From a virus, in the IMG/VR virus record IMGVR_UViG_3300045738_001226, positions 1-21,420 of that record: a stretch of 21,420 nt of DNA; one strand, given 5' to 3'. The notes beneath the pieces were generated by a model that worked only from the letters and a program-made list of their open reading frames with translations, was not told where the DNA came from and ran no database searches. Shown here piece by piece: positions 3,771 to 21,069 of the stretch (positions are counted from its first letter, which is position 1; each line of letters opens with the position of its first letter). A program made the position numbers and the translations under genes.

Positions 3771-4241
3771 ATGGCTTTCGCAATATCGCTGGACGTGAAC
3801 AAGAGGGAGTTGTCCAAAAGGAAGACAATGCTCAAGAAGATGCAGCAGGATATGCCAGGTGCCTATCTTCGTGCCATTTATGACGAGGCAGTTAAGATAT
3901 TCGAGGACAGCCAGGAAAGGGTTCCAGTAGACAGTGGGGATCTAAGGGCTTCAGGTCGCTTAACTCCTCCCACGAGGTCAGACCCTGAAGCTGAAATTTC
4001 CTATGACACCACCCTGGAGAGCAGCAAAGACTACGCGATGGCTGTTCACGAAGGCTACGAGAAGACATTTGAACACGGAAAAGAAGCAGGTTTTCTCATC
4101 AATGCGTGGCACAAGGTGGTGAATACCAAGTTTGATCAGCGTCTGCGCGACGCGACAAGGGAAAATTACAAAGCGAAGAAAGGCATCAGGGGGGTAAAAG
4201 GCAGGAAGGGTTCCAAGGGTCCACTGGCGCGTAAGGGATAA
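3771..4241 (+). CDS. HK97 gp10-like neck/tail completion protein
   Basis: This protein has 156 residues; the start is supported by AGGAG at 3761-3765, five bases upstream. It matches the HK97-gp10-like family. An N-terminal helical segment (about 10-50) leads to the hallmark VPVDSGDLRASG (51-62), a middle strand region, and YAMAVHEG (88-95), which is usually followed by the conserved His/Gly and a helix (NAWHKVVNTKF). The C-terminus (from about residue 133) is very basic and Gly-rich, with many Lys and Arg, beyond the usual family end. Members of this family act in head-tail joining and tail completion. It lies between the head-closure gene and the probable tail terminator, as expected. The family call is firm, the precise role inferred. 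Confidence 0.88.
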   Translation: MAFAISLDVNKRELSKRKTMLKKMQQDMPGAYLRAIYDEAVKIFEDSQERVPVDSGDLRASGRLTPPTRSDPEAEISYDTTLESSKDYAMAVHEGYEKTFEHGKEAGFLINAWHKVVNTKFDQRLRDATRENYKAKKGIRGVKGRKGSKGPLARKG

Positions 4242-4247
4242 TGATAG

Positions 4248-4973
4248 ATGGCGATTGTCTACGAACCTGATTTGGATGTGGCGACGTATTTAAACACGAC
4301 GCTTCCACAACTTACCCTCGGGACCAATCTTTTCGCTGGTCCCATGCGAGCGTATTCCCAGTCTAATGATCCAGTTGGAGTGCCACACGAGGCTACCTTC
4401 TGCTTGAATACAGGGGGTGCGGATCCCGTTACTTATATGAATGGGTCCGTAAAAAGAATCCAGATAAAAAAGCCAACAGTCCACGTAAAGCATAGGTCTG
4501 AGCCATACGAGTTTGCGAATGGACAGGAAATCGTAAGAGCCGTTCTGGATGCAGTAGATCGAAAACAGATCGGTACATACATAGACTCCCAGGTGAATGA
4601 TGGCTCTCCACACTACCTAGGCGAAGATAAAGACGGACACCATACATGGTCGATGAACATCGACATGATGTATCGCCTGGAAGAGTTTAAGGTTTACTGG
4701 GGGATAGGAGCGGCGGGAAGCTCAGGTGAGCCATTTATCACAGGTCTTCCCAATGATGACTATACAACAAACCGGTTTAGGGAGTTCACTCTTACCACGG
4801 CGGTTGGTGATTTCATGTATTACTGTTTCCCTGAAGAGTATTCTTCTATCGGAACAGTTGCATTTAGTGTACCCTTTTCGCTAACATCTACTGATGCAGT
4901 CGGAGGAATTCCATATCAAGTATGGAGATCGGACAGTGATAACTTAGGGGCATCTACGGTTTTGGTGACATAA
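4248..4973 (+). CDS. Tail terminator-like protein with extra fibre-type C-terminal domain
   Basis: This protein has 241 residues. The ATG at 4248 follows AAGGGAT (4233-4239). Residues 1-146 look like a tail terminator or minor capsid-type protein: LNTTLPQLTLGTNLFAGP, VPHEATFCL, then VKHRSEPYEFANGQEIV with a helix and a final WSMNIDMMYRL strand. This is the usual shape of the ring that caps the tail tube, and the position before the major tail genes agrees. Residues 148-241 form a separate beta-rich unit: VYWGIG, FITGLPNDD, a Thr-rich strand, YYCFPEEY, and YQVWRSDSDNLG near the end. That pattern is one I recognise from C-terminal domains of phage tail fibre and baseplate proteins. The fusion is unusual, see findings. 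The terminator assignment is position-supported; the second domain is a pattern-based call. Confidence 0.65.
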   Translation: MAIVYEPDLDVATYLNTTLPQLTLGTNLFAGPMRAYSQSNDPVGVPHEATFCLNTGGADPVTYMNGSVKRIQIKKPTVHVKHRSEPYEFANGQEIVRAVLDAVDRKQIGTYIDSQVNDGSPHYLGEDKDGHHTWSMNIDMMYRLEEFKVYWGIGAAGSSGEPFITGLPNDDYTTNRFREFTLTTAVGDFMYYCFPEEYSSIGTVAFSVPFSLTSTDAVGGIPYQVWRSDSDNLGASTVLVT

Positions 4974-4988: not shown

Positions 4989-5018
4989 TTGACGTTTATA
5001 ACTCGATAGCGTTCTTAT
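4989..5018 (+). promoter_or_regulatory. Candidate sigma70-type promoter before the tail tube genes
   Basis: TTGACG (4989-4994) and TCTTAT (5013-5018) are separated by 18 bases. The first matches five of six consensus -35 bases, the second four of six -10 bases. It lies in the largest noncoding gap of the window and points toward the tail tube genes. A second -10-like TATAGT is at 5034-5039 without a good -35. It was found by eye in a phage late region where transcription often reads through from an upstream promoter, so it may not be used. Confidence 0.35.
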
Positions 5019-5041
5019 TGCATGGGGTGCATTTATAGTGG

Positions 5042-5131
5042 GCGACCGATCCCCCCCTTTTGGTCGCTGTGGCTTTGCCGCCACCCCACCTTTCTGGGGG
5101 ATTGTCCTGTAACAACAGGGGATGATTCCCC
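5042..5131 (+). promoter_or_regulatory. Structured leader with successive hairpins before the first major tail gene
   Basis: The stretch holds several inverted repeats: GCGACC (5042-5047) with GGTCGC (5062-5067), GTGGC (5069-5073) with GCCAC (5080-5084), CCCCA (5084-5088) with TGGGG (5095-5099), CCTGT (5106-5110) with ACAGG (5115-5119), and GGGGA (5118-5122) with TCCCC (5127-5131). Some exclude each other. GGGGA at 5097-5101 can pair with TCCCC at 5127-5131 and enclose the CCTGT hairpin, instead of joining CCCCA. The last arm ends three bases before the ribosome site AGGAG (5134-5138). No U run follows a stem, so I do not call an intrinsic terminator. It may protect, process or regulate the tail tube message. 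Confidence 0.45.
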
Positions 5132-5145
5132 GTAGGAGATTTAAA

Positions 5146-5718
5146 ATGGCAGCAATAGCAGGTAGACTAGGAGAATTCTGGGCTGCAATCGACATCAACC
5201 TTGGCCCTCCAGTGGTTGTAAGTGATTGCCCCCAGCCGACTGGTGGTGTTCCAGCTTCAGATCCAGAAGCGCAGGCGACACCCGTAAACGGTAACTTTGG
5301 CATTATTCTGGAATCCTTGGTGGACACAACGCTTAATGGGAATGTGGACGAGCTAGAAACGACGGTTCACAATACAGGTGGGCAGTACACAGTTCCTCCC
5401 ATAACAGTTGACCACAATACGGCCAGGCAATACATTCCCAATTTCCATGATGAAACCCTGGATTTGACCTTGCGTTACGACGAAGAAGATCCCTGTCAGC
5501 GGAACCTTCTTTACGCGGCGATGGGTTCCAACCTGTTTTGGTATTGGTTCTTCCCTGATGGTCCTGGGTTCATGGGAGCTGTTCCAGCTTCGAATACGCG
5601 GGCATTCTTCGGCGCAGCATTTTCCACGAGCTTCAGTCCAGGGGCCCCGTTGGACGATGTGGCTACGCTTGATTTAACGCTTCGACTGAGTGGGACGATA
5701 ATGGAAGTGACTCCATGA
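5146..5718 (+). CDS. Major tail tube protein, first copy
   Basis: This protein has 190 residues. I chose ATG 5146, with AGGAG (5134-5138) seven bases upstream. An ATG at 5122 is in frame but lies within the hairpin region, and the start at 5146 aligns exactly with the paralogue downstream. The protein carries a major tail tube pattern: MAAIAGRLGEFWAAIDI at the N-terminus, then NGNVDELETTVH, then a segment with IPNFHDETLDLTLRYDEED that matches the strand-turn-strand typical of tail tube proteins (a His/Asp near the tip, then a long strand). It ends with a strand pair, DDVATLDLTLRLSG. It lies between the terminator-like gene and the tail assembly chaperone, as expected. It should form the stacked rings that line the tail channel. 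Confidence 0.85.
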   Translation: MAAIAGRLGEFWAAIDINLGPPVVVSDCPQPTGGVPASDPEAQATPVNGNFGIILESLVDTTLNGNVDELETTVHNTGGQYTVPPITVDHNTARQYIPNFHDETLDLTLRYDEEDPCQRNLLYAAMGSNLFWYWFFPDGPGFMGAVPASNTRAFFGAAFSTSFSPGAPLDDVATLDLTLRLSGTIMEVTP

Positions 5719-5773: not shown

Positions 5774-6352
5774 ATGACAGCAATAGCCGGAAGACTAGGG
5801 GAATTTTGGGCCGCAGTGGACGTTACGTTAGGCGTGGTGACGAATGTGGATCAGCCTACTGCCGATGGCGGCGGTCCAAGTATCCCAACCCCTGGCTCAG
5901 ACCCAGAAATAGTGATTGTTCCTGCTGGCGCAAACGCAGTTACAGGAATAATCCTTAGCTCGCTTGTTGACAGCACCTTTAACGGCAATGTCGATGAACT
6001 TGAAACGACCGTTCATAATACGGCAGGTACATACGCAGCAGTCACAGTTGACCACAGTACAGCAAGGACTTACATCCCTAACTTTCATGACGAAACGCTA
6101 GATTTGACCCTTCGTTATGATGAGGCAGATGTCTGCCAGCAGAATCTGCTTTACTGCTCCATGCAATCAAAACTGTTTTACTACTGGTTTGCCCCTGACG
6201 GTCCAGCGTTCTTTGGCGCTGGCTCAACAGGAGCCAGACAATTTAACGGTGCAGCCTTTGCAACCAGCTTTAGTCCTGGTAGTCCATTGGATGATGTTGC
6301 TACGTTAGATCTGACGCTGCGACTGAGCGGGTCGGTGATGGTTGTTCTTTAA
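5774..6352 (+). CDS. Major tail tube protein, second copy
   Basis: This protein has 192 residues, starting at ATG 5774 after ATAGGAGTAC. It is the paralogue of the preceding gene: MTAIAGRLGEFWAAVDV, NGNVDELETTVH, IPNFHDETLDLTLRYDEAD and DDVATLDLTLRLSG are shared or nearly so, while residues about 20-55 form a longer Pro/Gly/Asp-rich loop of different sequence. Both are complete, so both may enter the virion, for example as mixed rings or with one used as a minor or adhesive version. The variable loop is the likeliest place for a surface-exposed difference. The gap between the two copies (5719-5773) holds no other evident signal than the ribosome site. Confidence 0.85.
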   Translation: MTAIAGRLGEFWAAVDVTLGVVTNVDQPTADGGGPSIPTPGSDPEIVIVPAGANAVTGIILSSLVDSTFNGNVDELETTVHNTAGTYAAVTVDHSTARTYIPNFHDETLDLTLRYDEADVCQQNLLYCSMQSKLFYYWFAPDGPAFFGAGSTGARQFNGAAFATSFSPGSPLDDVATLDLTLRLSGSVMVVL

Positions 6353-7300: not shown

Positions 7301-10300
7301 ATGGGTGCCAACACAAAGACCGTGAAACTTAACGCCGACGTTGCCGAGTTCCTGAGAAACATGGGCAAGGTCAACAAGTCTCTTCTTCAGATGGGGAAGA
7401 AGCTCAGTGGTCTGGCCACACGTTTTGGCAAGATTGGCAAAGAGTTTGAGACGGCAGCAACCAAGATAAATAAAGCGTCTGGTTCATTCACCACAGCAGG
7501 GAAGAGAGCCTCCTCCGCCGCGAAAAAGATAGACAGAAGCGCAAAGAAGATACGCGCAGCAAATACAGCAATCAAGAATACAGGGACTGCCTTGAAGACG
7601 GCAGGGTCTCAGATGCTGAGATTCGGCGTCGTAATGGGAATCCCGGCTGCCGCCAGCATCAAGATGGCTGCAGACTTTGATTACTCGATGTCTCGCATAT
7701 CTGTCATCGCACGAGGGACAGCCAGAGGGGTAGACAAAGACTACCGGTCGATGAGTAAGGCAGCGTTAGATCTTGCCAACAAAACAGAACATACAGCCAG
7801 CCAGGTGGCTCAGGGTATGCAGTTCATGGCAATGGCCGGGTTCAAGGCTACCCAGATCATTGGCGCGATGCCTGCTGTGGCAAAGATAGCCACTGCCGGG
7901 AATCTTAGCATGGCAGACGCTGCCAATATCACCACCAATATCATGGCAGGGTATGGAATAACTCTTTCCAATGTAGCGAAAGAGATCAATGCAAACATTG
8001 GAACAACGAAGGGGTTGACTGCCGCCCAGGATGAACTGAGAAGCAAGCTGGGGGAGACAGCAAACATACTTGTAGGTACGTTTACAAATGCGAACGTAAG
8101 CCTGCTTGAGATGGGGGAAGCGTTTAAGCTCGCTGGCTCCAACGCAAAACTTCTTAATATGCCGATGGAAGATCTGTTCGCCATGATAGGTCTCCTCGGA
8201 AATATCGGTGTGAAAGGTACTGAGGCAGGCACAGCCTTGAAGAGATCTTTTTTCGCCATGCTGGACCCAACAGAAAAAGCCAAGGCAGCGATGAAGAGGC
8301 TTGGCATTGCTGCCGAGGATTTGTCTGGCAAGGGAAAATCAATGACCCTCATAGCGAAGCTAGAGGGTGCGAAGAAGGGGTACGAGGCTCTCCGCAGGGA
8401 ATTGGAGTTTGTCACCGACATGGCGATTGTGTTTGGTGAACGTGCTGGGCCAAAAATGGCCGCTGTTGTTGCTCAGGGTACAGCAGAATTCGTCAAGCTA
8501 AGAAGAGCAATTGAAATGGCAAAGATGGAGGGTCTTGCCGACGTGATAGAGACCCGCCAGTTGAGGACAACGAAGGGTGCGATAAAGGTTCTTATTAGCA
8601 ATATCCAGTCTCTCGGGATTGCCCTTGGTAAGTTTCTTTTGCCTGCGATTAAGGCTGTCACCGTATGGTTCACTGAGCTAACGAAAACTTTCAATGAGGC
8701 ATCCCCTCAGATGAAAAAGTTTATCTCTGAGGCTATGCTTATAGCCCCTGCGATGATCTTAGGCGTTGGCGGCGTAGCAAGGGCCTCGGGTGGACTTTTA
8801 GATCTAGTCGGAAGCCTGGGGTTCGCCGCCTGGGGGCTTGCACGTCTCAAGAAAAATACAGGGGTAATGCAGACCCTGGGGAAATTGAAATTCACTGGAT
8901 TGCGCAAGGGGATAAGCGGGGTCGGGACTACGCTGGCGAGCGTATATATGGGAACCACTGCGGCTTCTTCTGCGTGGACTGCTTTTGGCTCAAAGGTAAG
9001 CGGTGCCGCGTCCAGCATGAAGACGAGCATTGGAGGGCTGATTGGAAGGGTTCTGGACCTTGGAACTCGTCTCCTGTGGGCCGGGGGAACCATCGCGGCA
9101 TTAAAAGCTGCCGCCGTCGGGGGCGTTGTCTTTACCGTGACAACGGCAGCGATGGACCCAGAGGCATTCTTCAAGAAGGATAGCTTCAGCAAGATAAAAG
9201 ACAATATCACAAGCTCCCTTTCAGACACATTTGACCTTCTGACTAAGAGCTGGAGACATGCCGTTTCTGGCTTTGTGGACTGGATGGCCTCAATCTCGGT
9301 GGGGCTTGCAGATCTTTTCTCTGGAGCAGGAATGTCCAGCCTGGGGCATGAGCGGTTAAAGGAAGCCACTGCCGCCACCCGTAAGTGGGCCGATCTGAGC
9401 GTTGACGAAGCTGCCAGGGTAGAGAAATCATGGCAGTCTGTCAACGCTGCGCAGGGCGGGCTTGGGAGTCAAGCGAAGAGTCGCCCCGTATTTGCTGCCG
9501 CCATGAAGGAAGAGGGTTTATCCCCTACTGGATCGCCCAAGGAGCTTCAAGGTCTAATAAAGGCCACAAATGAACACGGCAAGCTACTCAAGGTGTGGGG
9601 GGACCGCATAGACGCAATCCGGCGCGTAGAAGAATTTGCTGGCAAGAAGGGAGATGCCTACAACGAAGCCAAGGCTGCACTGGGAAACCTAGATGCAGAG
9701 TCAATCAGGGATTTGGACCAGGAGTTTATGAAGTATGTCAAGGTGCAAAGTGCGGCGCTTTCGGCAAACGAGAAGCAGATAGACACGGCTCAAGATACAA
9801 ACAAGCAGTTGCTCGACTTGACACAGGCACTGAAGAATGTCCGCGACAGTGGGATGATGGCCGCAAGAGGATACGACAAAAGCGGCAAGGTGGTTGATAA
9901 GAAAATAATGAATCCAGAAATCCGAGCCGGGTTAATGGAACTACTCGAGGGGCAGGGCGTTGATGTCACAAAGGTACCCTATGCCAAGGGGAAGGTCGTA
10001 ATTGACGATGCGTCGCTGGCAAAACTTGCGCAGACGATGATCGAAGCCAACGGCCAGATGCTCAAAAGAGCAGCCAAGGTGACCCCTGCCTTGGCTGGGA
10101 AGGCGGATACCCAGGCCGCGCAAAATCAAGCACAATTTAATGAGATTTTAGAGCTATATAAGAAAAGTGTTGGGGATGACACGGCGAAAAGACTCAGGAT
10201 AAAACTCCTCAAGAAAGAACAAAAGAATGCCCTGAAGCTATGGAAAGACTTCTTTGCAAAACTGAAGTTTACCAAGTTTTTTAAAGAAGCGAACCGAATG

Positions 10301-15056: not shown

Positions 15057-17351
15057 ATGTCGTTTCTGACAATCAATGGATGGGACATACCCATCATAAA
15101 TGGAGGGATATCGCAAACGTCAACACAGCTTGGCAACGTGGGGCCATCGTTTACTAACCGCAGCATCCTGAATCGGCGCATCATCCCAAGGGGATGGGCT
15201 GGGAGTATGCTTTTTCAGTCTCCTGCCGTTGCCGATACGTTCGAGGGATTGCTGATGGGAAGGGGCCATCATTTCCCCTTCGATAACGATGGATGGAGTG
15301 AGTCTGGCATATCCGTATCCCCTGATTACTATTCAAGCGTTATCGTGACCCAAACATTGCCTGCGTTTGGCATAGGAAGCGCCGAGTTGACTCATGTGAG
15401 CAATGAAACCCATTTTGCGACAGACCTCCCCACAGACAAGTGGACTATGATGGTTTGGGTCTACAATACAGCCCTGTCTGTCGGTGGCAACAACGTGTAT
15501 GACCACTATGTAGAGGTTGGCAACGGAGACCAGTATATCAACGGGGTGCCAGACTCGTATAACTTTTTCATGGACGAGCATTTAGGGGTGGCTCGCATCT
15601 TTACCAGCGTTGATTTCCCAGACCCGGCCCACCGCATAGATGATCTGGTCATCCTCCCATTCAACGTAGACGCTTCCTTCGTCGCAGGTGTTTACGCCTA
15701 CCAGACTGCCAACAACTGCGTGATGCAATGCCCTTTTGATTACCCTGGTGACTTCGTGGACAGGGTTCACAACAATGAAGGTGCATCTACCACCATGACT
15801 GCCGGTGATGAAATAAGAAAATCAGGCAAGGGGTCTTTGATCAATTTGCTGGTTACGTCAGGCGTTGAATACACCGTGGTCGCCGGTAGCCCAATAGAAC
15901 TCAACAATGCTGAAAATCAAACGATATGTTTTTGGGTCAGGCCAGACTCTGCCAGTGCCGTTGCCAGCCGGACCTATTGCAATCAAAATAATGCTGCACC
16001 GGCAGCGTGGCTTTTTTTGTCGGGTGCTACGGGCAAAATCGGAGTTAACCGATTAGTCGGGGCCAATAACTTGCAGGTCTTGGATGCCGTTCCGCCAGTG
16101 GCAGATGAATGGGTCCATTACGCCATGACGTACACAACAGACGGTGCTTCTACGTCTTCAATGTCCCTTTATAAGAATGGGGCGTTAGTTGGGACTGACA
16201 CTGTTGCCTTCACTGGAGGCGCGAGTGCCGACAGCATATTCGTGGGTGCGGCAGGGGCCTCGTTTACCGGAAACATGGACGATTTTAGGTATTACAAATC
16301 CGCCCTGTCTCCACAGCAAGTCAGGGACGTTGTAAATGAAGGATACTTTGGGTATGAGTTTCTCCCTCCAGGCAAGCGAGCATTCTCCAAGTTGCCCAGA
16401 CTGCTTCTTCACGGGGATGTCATTGGAAGCAAGGAGCAAAAGCAGGTAGTGGGAGCCGTTACCAGCGAACCATATGTTACGACCGCCAGCAGCCCCAATG
16501 ACAGGTCTGTAGACTTCACCCTTGAGGAAATATACCCACTTCCAGAAGAGGGGATACCAAGACCTGACGCCCACTTCCTACTTGAGCCAAAATTCATTAT
16601 AGATGATGCAGGCGACGGGGTGCATGAGGATGCCGTTGCTGGCTATGAGTACACTGGGCGAAGTGGCGGGAACCCCACCCTTTTCCACGACAGTGATGAC
16701 AACTTTGGATTTTGCTATAAATTTGTTACGGCAGCTCTACCCAGGGATGCCTTCGACCTTCCAAGCGCCACGATGCCTGTATCTGGAAGTGATGAAAACT
16801 TTGGTGGAGACCTAGCTGGAAGAAGCGCCGTTACTATTGCCTCATGGTTTAAGATAGACATACTCCCAGGAACCGCCTCGTCAGACACTTTAGAGTACAT
16901 ATTCTCATCCCTCCTTGACACGGGAGGGGTAAGCAAGCTGGGCATAGGGATAAATGCAGCACCTAATCACTTTTTCTTTGCTGGGGCCAGAAGCTCATCG
17001 GCGGATTCATCAGTAGGCGGAGGCTCTGCCGTCAGTGCCGTTGCCGATGTCTGGTATTTCGTCGCCAGCGTTTTCAACCTAGCGGCAAAAACCTGTAATA
17101 TATTTGGGAATATGATCCCCGGCGGAGCAGGCAGCGAGTTGTTATACCTGGCCGGGAACACCGGGGTAAGCTGGGCCTTGGACCACTTTGACGCAGATGC
17201 CAGAAATACTCGCATTGGAGTATATGGAAACGGCAACCAAGAGGGATTCGACGGAAAGATAAAAAGCGTAATGTACTGGGGTCGAGCAGTTCCATACCAT
17301 GAGCTTAATGTGGTATTTGAAAAGGGATATAAACGTAGGATTTTTAGGTAG
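15057..17351 (+). CDS. Tail-tip protein with multiple LamG-like domains
   Basis: This 764-residue protein is an enlarged paralogue of the preceding gene. Start ATG 15057 follows GAGGT (15048-15052). Residues 1-78 match the neighbour's N-terminus (MSFLTINGWDIPI, RGWAGSMLFQSPAVADTFEGLL, GRGHHFPF). Residues about 80-215 match its LamG-like section (KWTMMVWVYN, IDDLVILPFNVDASFV). Residues about 282-430 are a clear LamG/concanavalin-like domain (QTICFWVRPDSAS, EWVHYAMTYT, LYKNGALVGT, GNMDDFRYYKSALSPQQVRDV). A small GDV/VTS/EEIYP module follows at about 446-496. Residues about 585-755 form another LamG-like domain (AVTIASWFKI, VWYFVASVFN, GKIKSVMYWGRAVPYHEL). Such domains commonly bind glycans, so a host-surface adhesion role is likely but untested. 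There is no signal peptide, as expected for a virion protein assembled inside the host. Confidence 0.75.
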   Translation: MSFLTINGWDIPIINGGISQTSTQLGNVGPSFTNRSILNRRIIPRGWAGSMLFQSPAVADTFEGLLMGRGHHFPFDNDGWSESGISVSPDYYSSVIVTQTLPAFGIGSAELTHVSNETHFATDLPTDKWTMMVWVYNTALSVGGNNVYDHYVEVGNGDQYINGVPDSYNFFMDEHLGVARIFTSVDFPDPAHRIDDLVILPFNVDASFVAGVYAYQTANNCVMQCPFDYPGDFVDRVHNNEGASTTMTAGDEIRKSGKGSLINLLVTSGVEYTVVAGSPIELNNAENQTICFWVRPDSASAVASRTYCNQNNAAPAAWLFLSGATGKIGVNRLVGANNLQVLDAVPPVADEWVHYAMTYTTDGASTSSMSLYKNGALVGTDTVAFTGGASADSIFVGAAGASFTGNMDDFRYYKSALSPQQVRDVVNEGYFGYEFLPPGKRAFSKLPRLLLHGDVIGSKEQKQVVGAVTSEPYVTTASSPNDRSVDFTLEEIYPLPEEGIPRPDAHFLLEPKFIIDDAGDGVHEDAVAGYEYTGRSGGNPTLFHDSDDNFGFCYKFVTAALPRDAFDLPSATMPVSGSDENFGGDLAGRSAVTIASWFKIDILPGTASSDTLEYIFSSLLDTGGVSKLGIGINAAPNHFFFAGARSSSADSSVGGGSAVSAVADVWYFVASVFNLAAKTCNIFGNMIPGGAGSELLYLAGNTGVSWALDHFDADARNTRIGVYGNGNQEGFDGKIKSVMYWGRAVPYHELNVVFEKGYKRRIFR

Positions 17352-17359
17352 GAGTGAAC

Positions 17360-17593
17360 ATGGCCAGCAAGATTTCATCTCGAAAGATTATCATAGAAGT
17401 GAAGGGGGATCTTTCCTCTCCACTTCCAGACCTATTGCTTGGGAAGTCCGTTTCCCTTAGCCTTGATGGTCCCAAGATAACAGGGTTTCAGGCAGACCTG
17501 CGGGCAGGAAACGCCTCTCAGGTGGTGATTACTGTGAAGTGTGCCTCTGCTGAAATTGAAGTCCTTGAAGATCCAGAAGTTCCGGGTGATTGA
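17360..17593 (+). CDS. Small unknown tail-region protein
   Basis: I chose the ATG at 17360 because AGGAG (17350-17354) lies five bases before it. A GTG at 17354 in frame is possible but overlaps that site. The 77-residue protein has three beta-like stretches (KIIIEVKGDL, KSVSLSLDG, QVVITVKCASAEIEVL) with a Gly/Asp-rich middle, so a small beta-sandwich is plausible. Composition is slightly acidic at the end. No family is recognised. It lies between two tail-tip genes, and its stop overlaps the next start (TGATG, 17591-17595). That suggests coupled translation and a tail role, for example a chaperone or a minor tip subunit. Confidence 0.6.
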   Translation: MASKISSRKIIIEVKGDLSSPLPDLLLGKSVSLSLDGPKITGFQADLRAGNASQVVITVKCASAEIEVLEDPEVPGD

Positions 17594-20500
17594 TGAGAAT
17601 GCCGCCTCACAGGATGGGGTCTCACCCCCTGGTTAGAAGTTCCTCTTTTCGTGCATGGTATTTGGACGAAATATCAGGGGTCGACTCCCCTTGTGTGTGG
17701 TCTACCCCTGGCGCAGGGCAGCTATTCAATAAAGACCTAGTGCTTAATGCAGGCATAGGCGCAACGGCACCCTTTATTACCGATTCACCCATTGGTATGG
17801 CCAGAAGGTTTCTAAGCGCAAACACCAATGCAATGCAGGGATCTCCTACTGCATCATCTCCTGCCGACTCGGACTCTGTAGCAGTTTTTCTAACGACAGA
17901 AACGACTGTTGGGGTTTGGCTCAAAATCAACACTGCTCCCCCTGCGGCGACAAAGGAAACGGTCGTCAGCCTTGTCAGTATCCTTAACAGTGCCGCAACG
18001 GCAGCAAATACCCTTTTTGCCCTCAGAGTTAACGATAACCTTACGTTGGAGATTGGACACGAGGAAGCTGGAGGGGGTAACCGTTTTGCGTCTACATCTT
18101 ACGCTATCCCACTGGGAAAATGGATCTATGTATGCGTCGTGAAGACTGCTGACGGTGGGAATGTACAGTATAAAGTTTATGTAAATGGAAGACACATTGA
18201 AGACCTTCCATCAGTCACAAATTGCGGCAATGGAGCAGATGCATTCTGGCAGGTAGCAGGAGTCATCGAGGCTACCACTCCTTTCGCACCTGTATTTCTG
18301 CTTACTGACGGAGAAATGGCCGGGATTTACACCTGGGACGATGCTCTTTCTGCAGATGCTATCTTGGAGGACTTCCAAAGGGGCCTCCTTCAAGGATTCC
18401 ACACTTCGGTAGATATACAAGTGTATATCGACAACGGAGAAACAGTCACTTCGGGACTCGAAGAAGAAGCAGTCTACCTGGAAGCCACAAGGTTGGACGG
18501 GTTGGACTTTGTTTCGTCTCTTACCATGTCAAATGCACCAGACAATGCCGTGACGCAGGGAACCGTCAAGTTGACCAGGGACCAGCAGAATCTCTCCCTC
18601 GCGTACCTGAAGAATGACACAAAGATCAATTTTCCTGATCCCAATGTAACAAGTGGACCCAGGTTCCTAGACACGTCCAGGGGAATAAAGATTTATACGT
18701 GCAGGACACCGCTTGGCGTTAGAGCCAGTGGCAGGGATTTCTGGCTCTTGCTGGATGGTACCACTGATATGTTTGACTGGGGCAGCGATGAGGTATCCCT
18801 TAACTTCAGGGACAAGGGTGGCGTTTTAGTCGATACGTTCATTGAGGAAGAGCTTCCGTATGGCAGCGTGCTAGGGGCTACAATTCATAGCCAAATGCAG
18901 TTAATCTTAGATGCTAACTCCGTTGGCGGTGGGAAGATTGGATCGTATGATTCTCCCACGTTAACTGATTCTGTAAGCGGGCTTATGCCGACCTGGGCAA
19001 TCAAGTCATTTGAACAGAGACGTGAGCCTGTGATGGTTGCGCTTAGAACGCTCGCTGGGCAGTTTGGTCATGATGTCAAATACAGGTGGAATGAGATATT
19101 TGAAGAGTTCAGGCTTACCCTCTACCAGCCAGAATCGGACTCCACGACTCCTGCCATTATCTTCAACCCAGCAGAAATTGCATCCGTGTCAAAGGCTGAA
19201 ATAGCCCTGCAAAAGATTAGAAACGTGGTTCGAGTTTCTTACGACTCAACTGAGACAGGGGGTGCGTCTGGGACACAGCTTGCGAACGTAAACGCGGCAT
19301 TGGCCCTTCTTCCACTTCCGGGGACATTGCCCGGAACACCAGTGGTCCCAACTGGCGCAGTGGGTCAAGATGCAGATGGGAATCGCCTGCCCGCCTTTGT
19401 TATGCTTGAGGATCTTGTTTCTATCGCCAAGTATGGCCGCAGATTCATGGAGGTGCAAGAGTCCAGCACGTCGCACATTGATTTAGGCACAGAGGCCACA
19501 GAGATGGCGTGGCGAATGCTGGGGGATCTATCAGAGCCTGAATTTGGTCATTCTGTCAGCATCCCGATCACACCGGAAATAGACATTCATGACATAATCG
19601 GCTTCTCCCCTAATGAGAAGTTGTACACCGAAAGTCAGTATCTTGCAGTGGCCAGGGTTTCCCATACCTTTGGCGAGAAGGCTACCACCTCTATTGATGT
19701 CCGTGGGAGGCCCAATATGGGCATCAAGAGATGGCTGATGCTGGAGTCAAGGTCTGCGAACAACCCTGCGAATACGCCCATGCAGGCGCAAAACGCAATG
19801 ACAAAAACCCAGCGAATGAACCCCATGCAGTCCATCGTGGATAAGACACACTGGATGGCAGGCGGAAAGTTTGCTCAGGTTAGAAATAATAGCTTCTCCA
19901 CATGGACAAATGGGAGGGAGAATCCACCCACGTCTTGGGTTATGGATACGGGAGATGAATGGGACAACGATACGATAAAAGCCACAACTACATCACTGAC
20001 TGGCCCTTTGTCAGTGGCGATGCACGAGGACGGAGGGACGAATCCAAGAATAGACTCGGATCTCATCCCCCTGGATGGCGACGTAAACGTACCATATTGC
20101 CTAGAGGTCACATGGCAGAGAATCGCGGGGGCAAGCACCTCGTCACGTCCTAGTTTTTTCGTAAAATGGCTTGACGCTGCGTTTAACGTGGTTGGTTCGT
20201 CTGGCCCTCTTGAAACTCTTATACCTGCACCTGGAGCGGCAGAGTGGCACACGCATCGGTATCAAGGTCTTTCGGGTGCCGCCAGTGCTGTTTATGCACA
20301 GATTAACATGGGGTCAAACTTTGGCGGCGTGGCAAATGAAGTCATAGTTGATAGTGCTTCTATTTACAGGAATGCGTATGGGAGCCGAACAACACTTCAA
20401 ACAACCGGCGACTGGGTAGGAACCGCCTTTAGTGCAAACATAAAGGCTGGCGGTGGGTTAAACATTAGGGCATCGAACGTCTCTACGGCTGGTTCCTATG

Positions 20501-21069
20501 ACTTTGGGGAAAATTGGGTAGACGACACGTCAACAGCGGCAGGGAATCACGATGGGACTTACTTTGATGTGCCAGTCACGGGGTACTATGATGTGTCAGG
20601 AGCTATATATGTCGGAATAACGCCCAGTGAAGCTATTCCTTGGGACTACTGGGAGGATGTAGTGTTTCCAGGTGGATCTCTCCAAGTTCTTTTTAACAGC
20701 CACATACCCCCAGTCACCAGCACCATAATACCTCCTCCTCCATCTTGGACGGGTGGAGTTTTGGCGTCGATTAACACGCAGTATGGACCGACAGGGCTTC
20801 TTACGATTATTGGAACGCCACTTGCGCAAGAATCGGCAACCTTTACGATCGGTTTCAATGCGGCATCAAACAGGGCGTTGCCTGGAAACCCTATTCCCAT
20901 TAACATGCGAGGGCTTCTTCTTACCAGGGGTGACAGGCTCTCCTTTTCTCTCTTCGCTGTCCCTACGGCAGCCCTTGTTTACCCAGCGACGGATATGGAT
21001 ATTAGCACGGCAGGCTCAGACTTTCTCGATCCATCTTACATTCACGTAAAGCTCATCGAAAACGATTAA
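17593..21069 (+). CDS. Multidomain tail-tip protein: LamG, hub-like core, C-terminal binding modules
   Basis: The start at ATG 17593 is coupled to the upstream stop by TGATG. TTG 17590 would also be in frame, but ATG is preferred. The product has 1158 residues. Residues about 15-265 are a third LamG-like region (TVGVWLKIN, GKWIYVCVV, YKVYVNGR, MAGIYTWDDALS). Residues about 270-710 resemble the core of siphovirus baseplate hub/tail-associated proteins: SVDIQVYID, a strand-rich section, then KIRNVVRVSYDSTETG (541-556), TEATEMAWRML and ITPEIDIHDIIGF. Residues about 760-930 look like a carbohydrate-binding jelly roll (FSTWTNG, AEWHTHRYQGL, NEVIVDSASIYRN). Residues about 935-1158 look C1q/TNF-like: YFDVPVTGYYDVSGAIYVGI, and GDRLSFSLFAV near the end. 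These tail-tip parts suggest receptor recognition. Domain edges are estimates. Confidence 0.7.
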   Translation: MRMPPHRMGSHPLVRSSSFRAWYLDEISGVDSPCVWSTPGAGQLFNKDLVLNAGIGATAPFITDSPIGMARRFLSANTNAMQGSPTASSPADSDSVAVFLTTETTVGVWLKINTAPPAATKETVVSLVSILNSAATAANTLFALRVNDNLTLEIGHEEAGGGNRFASTSYAIPLGKWIYVCVVKTADGGNVQYKVYVNGRHIEDLPSVTNCGNGADAFWQVAGVIEATTPFAPVFLLTDGEMAGIYTWDDALSADAILEDFQRGLLQGFHTSVDIQVYIDNGETVTSGLEEEAVYLEATRLDGLDFVSSLTMSNAPDNAVTQGTVKLTRDQQNLSLAYLKNDTKINFPDPNVTSGPRFLDTSRGIKIYTCRTPLGVRASGRDFWLLLDGTTDMFDWGSDEVSLNFRDKGGVLVDTFIEEELPYGSVLGATIHSQMQLILDANSVGGGKIGSYDSPTLTDSVSGLMPTWAIKSFEQRREPVMVALRTLAGQFGHDVKYRWNEIFEEFRLTLYQPESDSTTPAIIFNPAEIASVSKAEIALQKIRNVVRVSYDSTETGGASGTQLANVNAALALLPLPGTLPGTPVVPTGAVGQDADGNRLPAFVMLEDLVSIAKYGRRFMEVQESSTSHIDLGTEATEMAWRMLGDLSEPEFGHSVSIPITPEIDIHDIIGFSPNEKLYTESQYLAVARVSHTFGEKATTSIDVRGRPNMGIKRWLMLESRSANNPANTPMQAQNAMTKTQRMNPMQSIVDKTHWMAGGKFAQVRNNSFSTWTNGRENPPTSWVMDTGDEWDNDTIKATTTSLTGPLSVAMHEDGGTNPRIDSDLIPLDGDVNVPYCLEVTWQRIAGASTSSRPSFFVKWLDAAFNVVGSSGPLETLIPAPGAAEWHTHRYQGLSGAASAVYAQINMGSNFGGVANEVIVDSASIYRNAYGSRTTLQTTGDWVGTAFSANIKAGGGLNIRASNVSTAGSYDFGENWVDDTSTAAGNHDGTYFDVPVTGYYDVSGAIYVGITPSEAIPWDYWEDVVFPGGSLQVLFNSHIPPVTSTIIPPPPSWTGGVLASINTQYGPTGLLTIIGTPLAQESATFTIGFNAASNRALPGNPIPINMRGLLLTRGDRLSFSLFAVPTAALVYPATDMDISTAGSDFLDPSYIHVKLIEND

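Follow-up and report, generated by a model that had tools for sequence, protein, structure and literature searches.

The window analysed here, the 21,420-base virus record IMGVR_UViG_3300045738_001226, is a fragment from a virus that infects bacteria, and it encodes a predicted tail terminator with a C-terminal module of the kind that ends phage fibre-like proteins. The gene (4248..4973, on the plus strand, as are all features described below) is an open reading frame (ORF) of 241 residues, and its two-domain anatomy is close to certain, with a predicted tail terminator domain at residues 1-146 (4248..4685) and a fibre-type module at residues 149-241 (4692..4970). A sequence-only reading of the window had already described residues 148-241 (4689-4970) as a fibre-type part following a terminator-like domain, and the ORF, the coordinates and the short strings quoted from the translation are all as it gave them. 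The terminator is a core assembly part, present as one ring at a fixed place, and a fibre module on it, if the assignment is true, would create a host-interaction site at the end of the tail opposite the tip. Other known carriers of fibre and lectin-like modules are tube, Dit, capsid and separate neck proteins.

The identification of residues 1-146 as a tail terminator rests on the model's matches to solved terminators, on gene position and on short relatives that exceed the cut-off of Pfam family PF12691 (tail terminator 6). Residues 1-148 of the model match 2gjv (Z 13.2), a gene transfer agent chain (Z 12.7), T5 p142 (Z 12.3) and lambda gpU (3fzb, Z 10.1), with root-mean-square deviations of 2.5-3.5 in the VIA-align matches, which agrees with the earlier description of this part as terminator-like. 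The entries of the structure comparison were essentially all terminators, aligned over residues 1-150, and the missing C-domain match there is uninformative. The window protein itself scores 12.7 bits against PF12691, below the cut-off of 23.8, and nine of the 11 aligned family members match at expectation values (E) of up to 1; the four distinct short homologues examined all score above the cut-off, at 27.2-32.4 bits. The gene lies between the neck/completion gene and the tube genes, the position expected of this family.

Sequence comparison shows the module of residues 149-241 to be complete and of the kind found at the C-terminal end of phage fibre-like proteins. The C-domain profile covers exactly these residues, the extreme C-terminus of the window protein, and its hhalign comparison with a fibre-module profile (A1 against A12) gave a probability of 98.7% and E 2.6e-16 over columns 1-93, compared with a probability of 0.3% for the N-domain profile used as a control. 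A hidden Markov model (HMM) built from 11 distinct terminator C-domains only, and scored as against a million sequences, detected the fibre-like proteins L095 (33.1 bits, E 2.5e-6), L098 (30.9), L102 (29.1), L093 (19.1) and L092 (15.0). These five are the nearer intermediates of the module scan (L080-L091 were excluded from the test), and each was reversed once and shuffled 200 times, giving 1005 decoys with a best score of 7.6 bits; scores did not exceed -1.0 for the reversed HMM or 0.1 for the N-domain HMM. A chance beta-rich pattern is excluded by these three controls.

A scan led by the module of a 642-kilobase phage returned fibre-like proteins together with terminators of the window's clade, and a final scan led by the L102 module returned 15 fibre-like loci and seven terminators. 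These scans used alignments that included terminator C-domains, the confirming sequence being a fibre-type protein, and their E-values are relative to the candidate stretches only. In all 15 fibre-like loci the module match ends 0-6 residues before the C-terminus, and the C-domain HMM matches every one (L141 partially only) and the N-domain HMM none. The set is partly redundant, as L132-L134 are alike in all printed respects, L138 and L139 share a contig, and L127, L129 and L131 repeat L102, L098 and L095. The carriers have 406-918 residues, except L139, whose start is missing, and most have a second copy of the module just before the last. L095 has N-terminal collagen repeats and matches tail fibre families, and the carrier in phage PaBG is annotated as tail fibre/intimin-like and is surrounded by baseplate and fibre genes. 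The other carriers are called fibre-like by architecture only, and among ten proteins neighbouring the fibre-like carriers there was no match to a tail family.

The relationship is visible mainly through profiles. Single-sequence searches with the window protein returned nothing in cultured phages or viral contigs, and the only hints from the window sequence were weak, namely the PaBG tail fibre at E about 2. Two of ten of its relatives match phrog_14098 ('tail protein', best E 0.0038), and relatives also match the 642-kilobase phage (E 0.02). PaBG-type modules (A3) were at one point considered the closest kin, but their hhalign probability of 84% over 48 columns has been superseded by the whole-length match to A12. 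Comparison of C-part profiles with solved structures gave no credible match (the best, Fusexin1, at E 0.0048, covers part of the profile only), and there is no Pfam match for the C-part alone, Ig-like families (Big_1, Big_2, I-set and FN3) included. The sequence-only reading had named a C-terminal part resembling no fibre or baseplate domain as an outcome that would speak against it, and it is fibre C-terminal modules that were found. A further fusion of a module to a small non-fibre protein was observed in Yersinia phage fHe-Yen9-02, where a 232-residue protein encoded directly after the tail sheath gene (L049:1132-1830) ends in a PaBG-type module (phrog_14098, E 3.4e-17).

Natural terminators with and without the module occur among relatives of the window. 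Of 23 capsid-related loci, 16 include a terminator, with 14 in the long form and two, L017 and L018, in a short form; of the remaining seven, L024 (37% capsid identity) gave no match and the other six break off before the neighbouring genes or within them. A scan with the N-domain added the long forms L064 and L069 and the short forms L070, L073, L075, L076 and L077. The long form is thus known from 17 loci including the window (13 distinct proteins) and the short form from seven contigs (five distinct proteins), with lengths of 145 residues in L017 and L018, which are close capsid relatives of the window, and 134-136 residues in the other five. The short forms terminate at the point where the module would begin, which bears out the proposed domain break, and because seven contigs have such module-less terminators, tail capping does not need the C-module. 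A single continuous terminator fold, the other outcome that would have spoken against the fusion, is ruled out by these short forms and by the fibre-module match, with the terminator match confined to residues 1-148. The suggested check of close relatives found the same extension. No second copy of the module was detected in the window, in the examined stretches of its relatives or in three full records with the module that were also searched. Neither the N-domain nor the module had a relative in two scans of bacterial and archaeal genomes, and for this reason no host is inferred. Together the short and long forms offer a clear-cut example of a core assembly protein that has gained or lost a domain, probably with cassette exchange, and these natural plus and minus forms in related phages make the role of the module directly testable.

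The two forms also differ in their neighbourhoods. In eight of nine short-form loci, one or two small genes (about 115 residues) lie between the terminator and the tube gene; two contigs appear twice in this count, and the ninth locus, L077, ends too soon. Such genes are found in none of the 17 long-form loci, among which L015 ends before the tube gene. The small proteins, present in one or two copies (L017:10261-10957, L070:2354-2710, L073:3418-3765 and L075:3487-4227), show weak matches to phrog_16194 ('tail protein') and to families of unknown function. The evidence that the module stands in for the small proteins of the short-form phages is weak, because the pattern could have arisen just once as the clade evolved.

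The model of the whole protein, calculated from a 22-row alignment, has a mean predicted local distance difference test score (pLDDT) of 86.5 and a predicted template modelling score of 0.68, and was used instead of the single-sequence fold (pLDDT 34.6). The alignment (A10) included five fibre modules, and the good C-domain model is therefore not independent proof of homology. In the model, the strand formed by residues 131-154 runs unbroken across the junction, with no flexible linker, so that the two domains stand as first described but the break between them is a continuous strand and not a loose connection. This geometry would also suit a structural collar, with the module serving as a brace for the neck, capsid vertex or first tube ring in place of an adhesin. 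The strong conservation of the module points in the same direction, as does its occurrence where related phages have one or two small tail-type proteins instead, and there is a precedent in the R4C adaptor, whose Ig-like domain is held by its authors to stabilise the neck and not to adsorb (PMC10276861; the published work cited here is represented by excerpts). However, seven contigs have terminators lacking the module, its other carriers are fibre-like proteins, and exchange between phages with differing N-domains and tube genes is harder to reconcile with a tightly fitted contact. The collar is the main rival reading, regarded as unlikely though deserving of real weight.

The case for exchange comes from comparisons of long-form loci. 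Between L007 and L023, 25 of 46 fourfold-degenerate sites differ in the N-domain but only 4 of 55 in the C-domain, and sliding identity reveals an island of 91-99% that begins around base 60-100 of the C-domain and ends close to the tube-gene start; its flanks are mostly 45-75% identical, with some stretches at 82-95%. Similar but less sharp islands are present between L007 and L012 and between L019 and L069. The trees also conflict, with the N-domain grouping L014 and L069 (support 100/97) and the C-domain grouping L019 and L069 (94/90, below the starred level). Between subclades, C-domains are 50-62% identical and most fourfold sites differ, so the islands are not explained by a nucleotide constraint acting generally on the coding part. 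Recent exchange does explain them, although constraint on the leader that follows the gene may contribute; in one subclade, the C-domain and this leader are probably exchanged as a cassette. The islands, and the absence of the module in some relatives, would also suit a mobile passenger spread by recombination with little benefit to the phage. Against this, the module is intact in all 17 long-form loci, with many invariant positions across the 13 distinct proteins, and we consider a passenger improbable.

The explanation that we favour, at about even chances of being correct, is that the module, fused to the tail terminator of a long-tailed siphophage, serves as an accessory adhesin, with six copies exposed where head and tail meet. 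Given its predicted fold and the habit of its family, the N-domain would assemble into the hexameric ring usual for terminators, closing the tail tube and joining it to the neck. Leaving this ring on a continuous beta strand, the modules would stand in six copies around the junction, where they would most likely act as accessory adhesins of low affinity, probably binding surface glycans, and help to keep the virion near or along a cell. The identity profiles support a module that can pass between related phages independently of the remainder of the gene. Adhesion is favoured because of the fibre-like carriers, the apparent mobility, the Laminin_G_3 domains in distal tail proteins (vide infra) and published cases of host or glycan binding elsewhere. 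In 936 lactococcal phages, the neck passage structure, the tube (TpeX) and Dit bear carbohydrate-binding modules, two of which bind host cells, such binding being described for modules on neck and tube proteins (PMC6669499), and the Ig-like domains of Douge bind mycobacterial glycans (PMC13033339). Several observations nevertheless weigh against an adhesin. The module is conserved between subclades about equally to or more than the N-domain (50-62% compared with 42-53% identity), which appears unlike a typical host-range adhesin; the continuous joining strand of the model would suit a rigid collar as well; and the long-form phages have none of the small genes of the short-form phages, so that the module might replace a structural part. 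A fuller version of the adhesin proposal, in which the terminator has become an adhesive collar of six fibre-tip modules, cassette-swapped independently of the capping part and replacing the small tail proteins of relatives, is offered tentatively and is somewhat doubtful. It is very unlikely that the module instead serves at the neck as a docking site for another virion protein, such as a whisker or fibre. Other phages do have neck whiskers and neck passage fibres (PMC6669499), but the module lies at the free C-terminus of its other carriers, where an end piece would be expected in place of a socket, and no partner gene was identified.

Modular decoration of virion proteins is already known, with accessory domains described on tube, Dit, capsid, adaptor and neck passage proteins (PMC6669499, PMC9022992, PMC10276861, PMC13033339); what stands out here is the terminator, a part not seen with decoration of this type. 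Siphophage terminators such as lambda gpU, T5 p142 and members of PF12691 share the fold of residues 1-148 and the gene position, but lambda gpU and T5 p142 end at the terminator domain, whereas the window protein adds about 95 residues of another family. The fibre-like proteins (L095, L098, L102 and the PaBG tail fibre) resemble it in the whole-length profile match and the extreme C-terminal position of the module, but usually carry a tandem pair on 406-918 residues, in contrast to one copy on a 241-residue terminator. The 936 modules, like that of the window, are additions to virion proteins distant from the receptor-binding tip; they have other carriers and BppA-like or other folds, and none is on a terminator in the excerpted text (PMC6669499). 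The R4C adaptor likewise has an accessory beta domain on a neck ring, although there the Ig-like domain is on a dodecameric adaptor and its authors favour neck stabilisation over adsorption (PMC10276861). The sequence-only reading had suggested that comparable cases at the head-tail junction are few; comparable decorations of the neck are known on other proteins (PMC6669499, PMC10276861). In the open PubMed Central literature, no description of a siphophage terminator with a fibre or adhesin module was found, subscription papers being mostly outside the scope of that search.

The larger terminators of contractile tails, for example PVC16, also have an additional C-terminal domain (PMC11784142), and the window protein could in principle be of this type, with its C-domain touching a sheath. 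However, the contractile-tail examples named there either contact a sheath or, in PVC16, have an extra domain that resembles the terminator fold itself (PMC11784142). No sheath gene is present between 4973 and the tape measure at 7301 in this fragmentary record, the genes in that interval matching tube or tail-protein families or one family of unknown function. The short forms are terminators complete in themselves, and the match of the C-part is to fibre modules. A contractile-type terminator is thus highly improbable, and a myophage sheath domain was rejected for want of a sheath gene from the terminator to the tape measure.

The surrounding gene order is the standard siphophage arrangement. 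The major capsid (664), head-tail adaptor (2752), connector (3439) and neck or tail completion gene (3771..4241; phrog_5, tail completion or Neck1, E 4e-08) precede the terminator at 4248, the last of these directly. Downstream are tube-like genes (5146 and 5774), a tail protein (6397), a member of a family of unknown function (6900) and a tape measure of 2252 residues (7301). The first tail-tube gene (5146..5718) has a weak match to the PHROG major tail protein (E 0.00066), and its start is assigned by conservation with relatives; the second (5774..6352) is a paralogue with 70% identity to it. The two paralogues adjoin in the window, and a single tube gene is shown in relatives L014, L019 and L069. 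After the tape measure, two large genes (15057-17351 and 17590-21069) match Laminin_G_3 (concanavalin-like lectin) with E 5.1e-25 and 7.6e-11.

Between the module and the first tube gene, and outside the terminator protein, lies a conserved structured element (5001..5150) consistent with an RNA leader for the tail-tube gene. Its predicted structure has two hairpins, the first of them with a loop rich in C, together with a closing helix and, ahead of the ribosome-binding site, a further short hairpin. Twelve of 26 pairs are changed on both sides, and the covariation score of 0.422 compares with 0.258 in shuffles (0/500 reach 0.422) and at most 0.163 on sliding. No Rfam match was found in the window. 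The leader model scores 123-147 bits at the same place in 18 of the 30 sources searched, 11 of which were used to build it; short-form phage L017 gives a weak match at the same place (15.9 bits, E 0.22). Among nine whole records searched, the leader occurs once in each of eight and not in the L017 record. In L015, the contig end (about 5775-6031) diverges abruptly from near relatives within the leader, and is possibly a chimeric assembly end.
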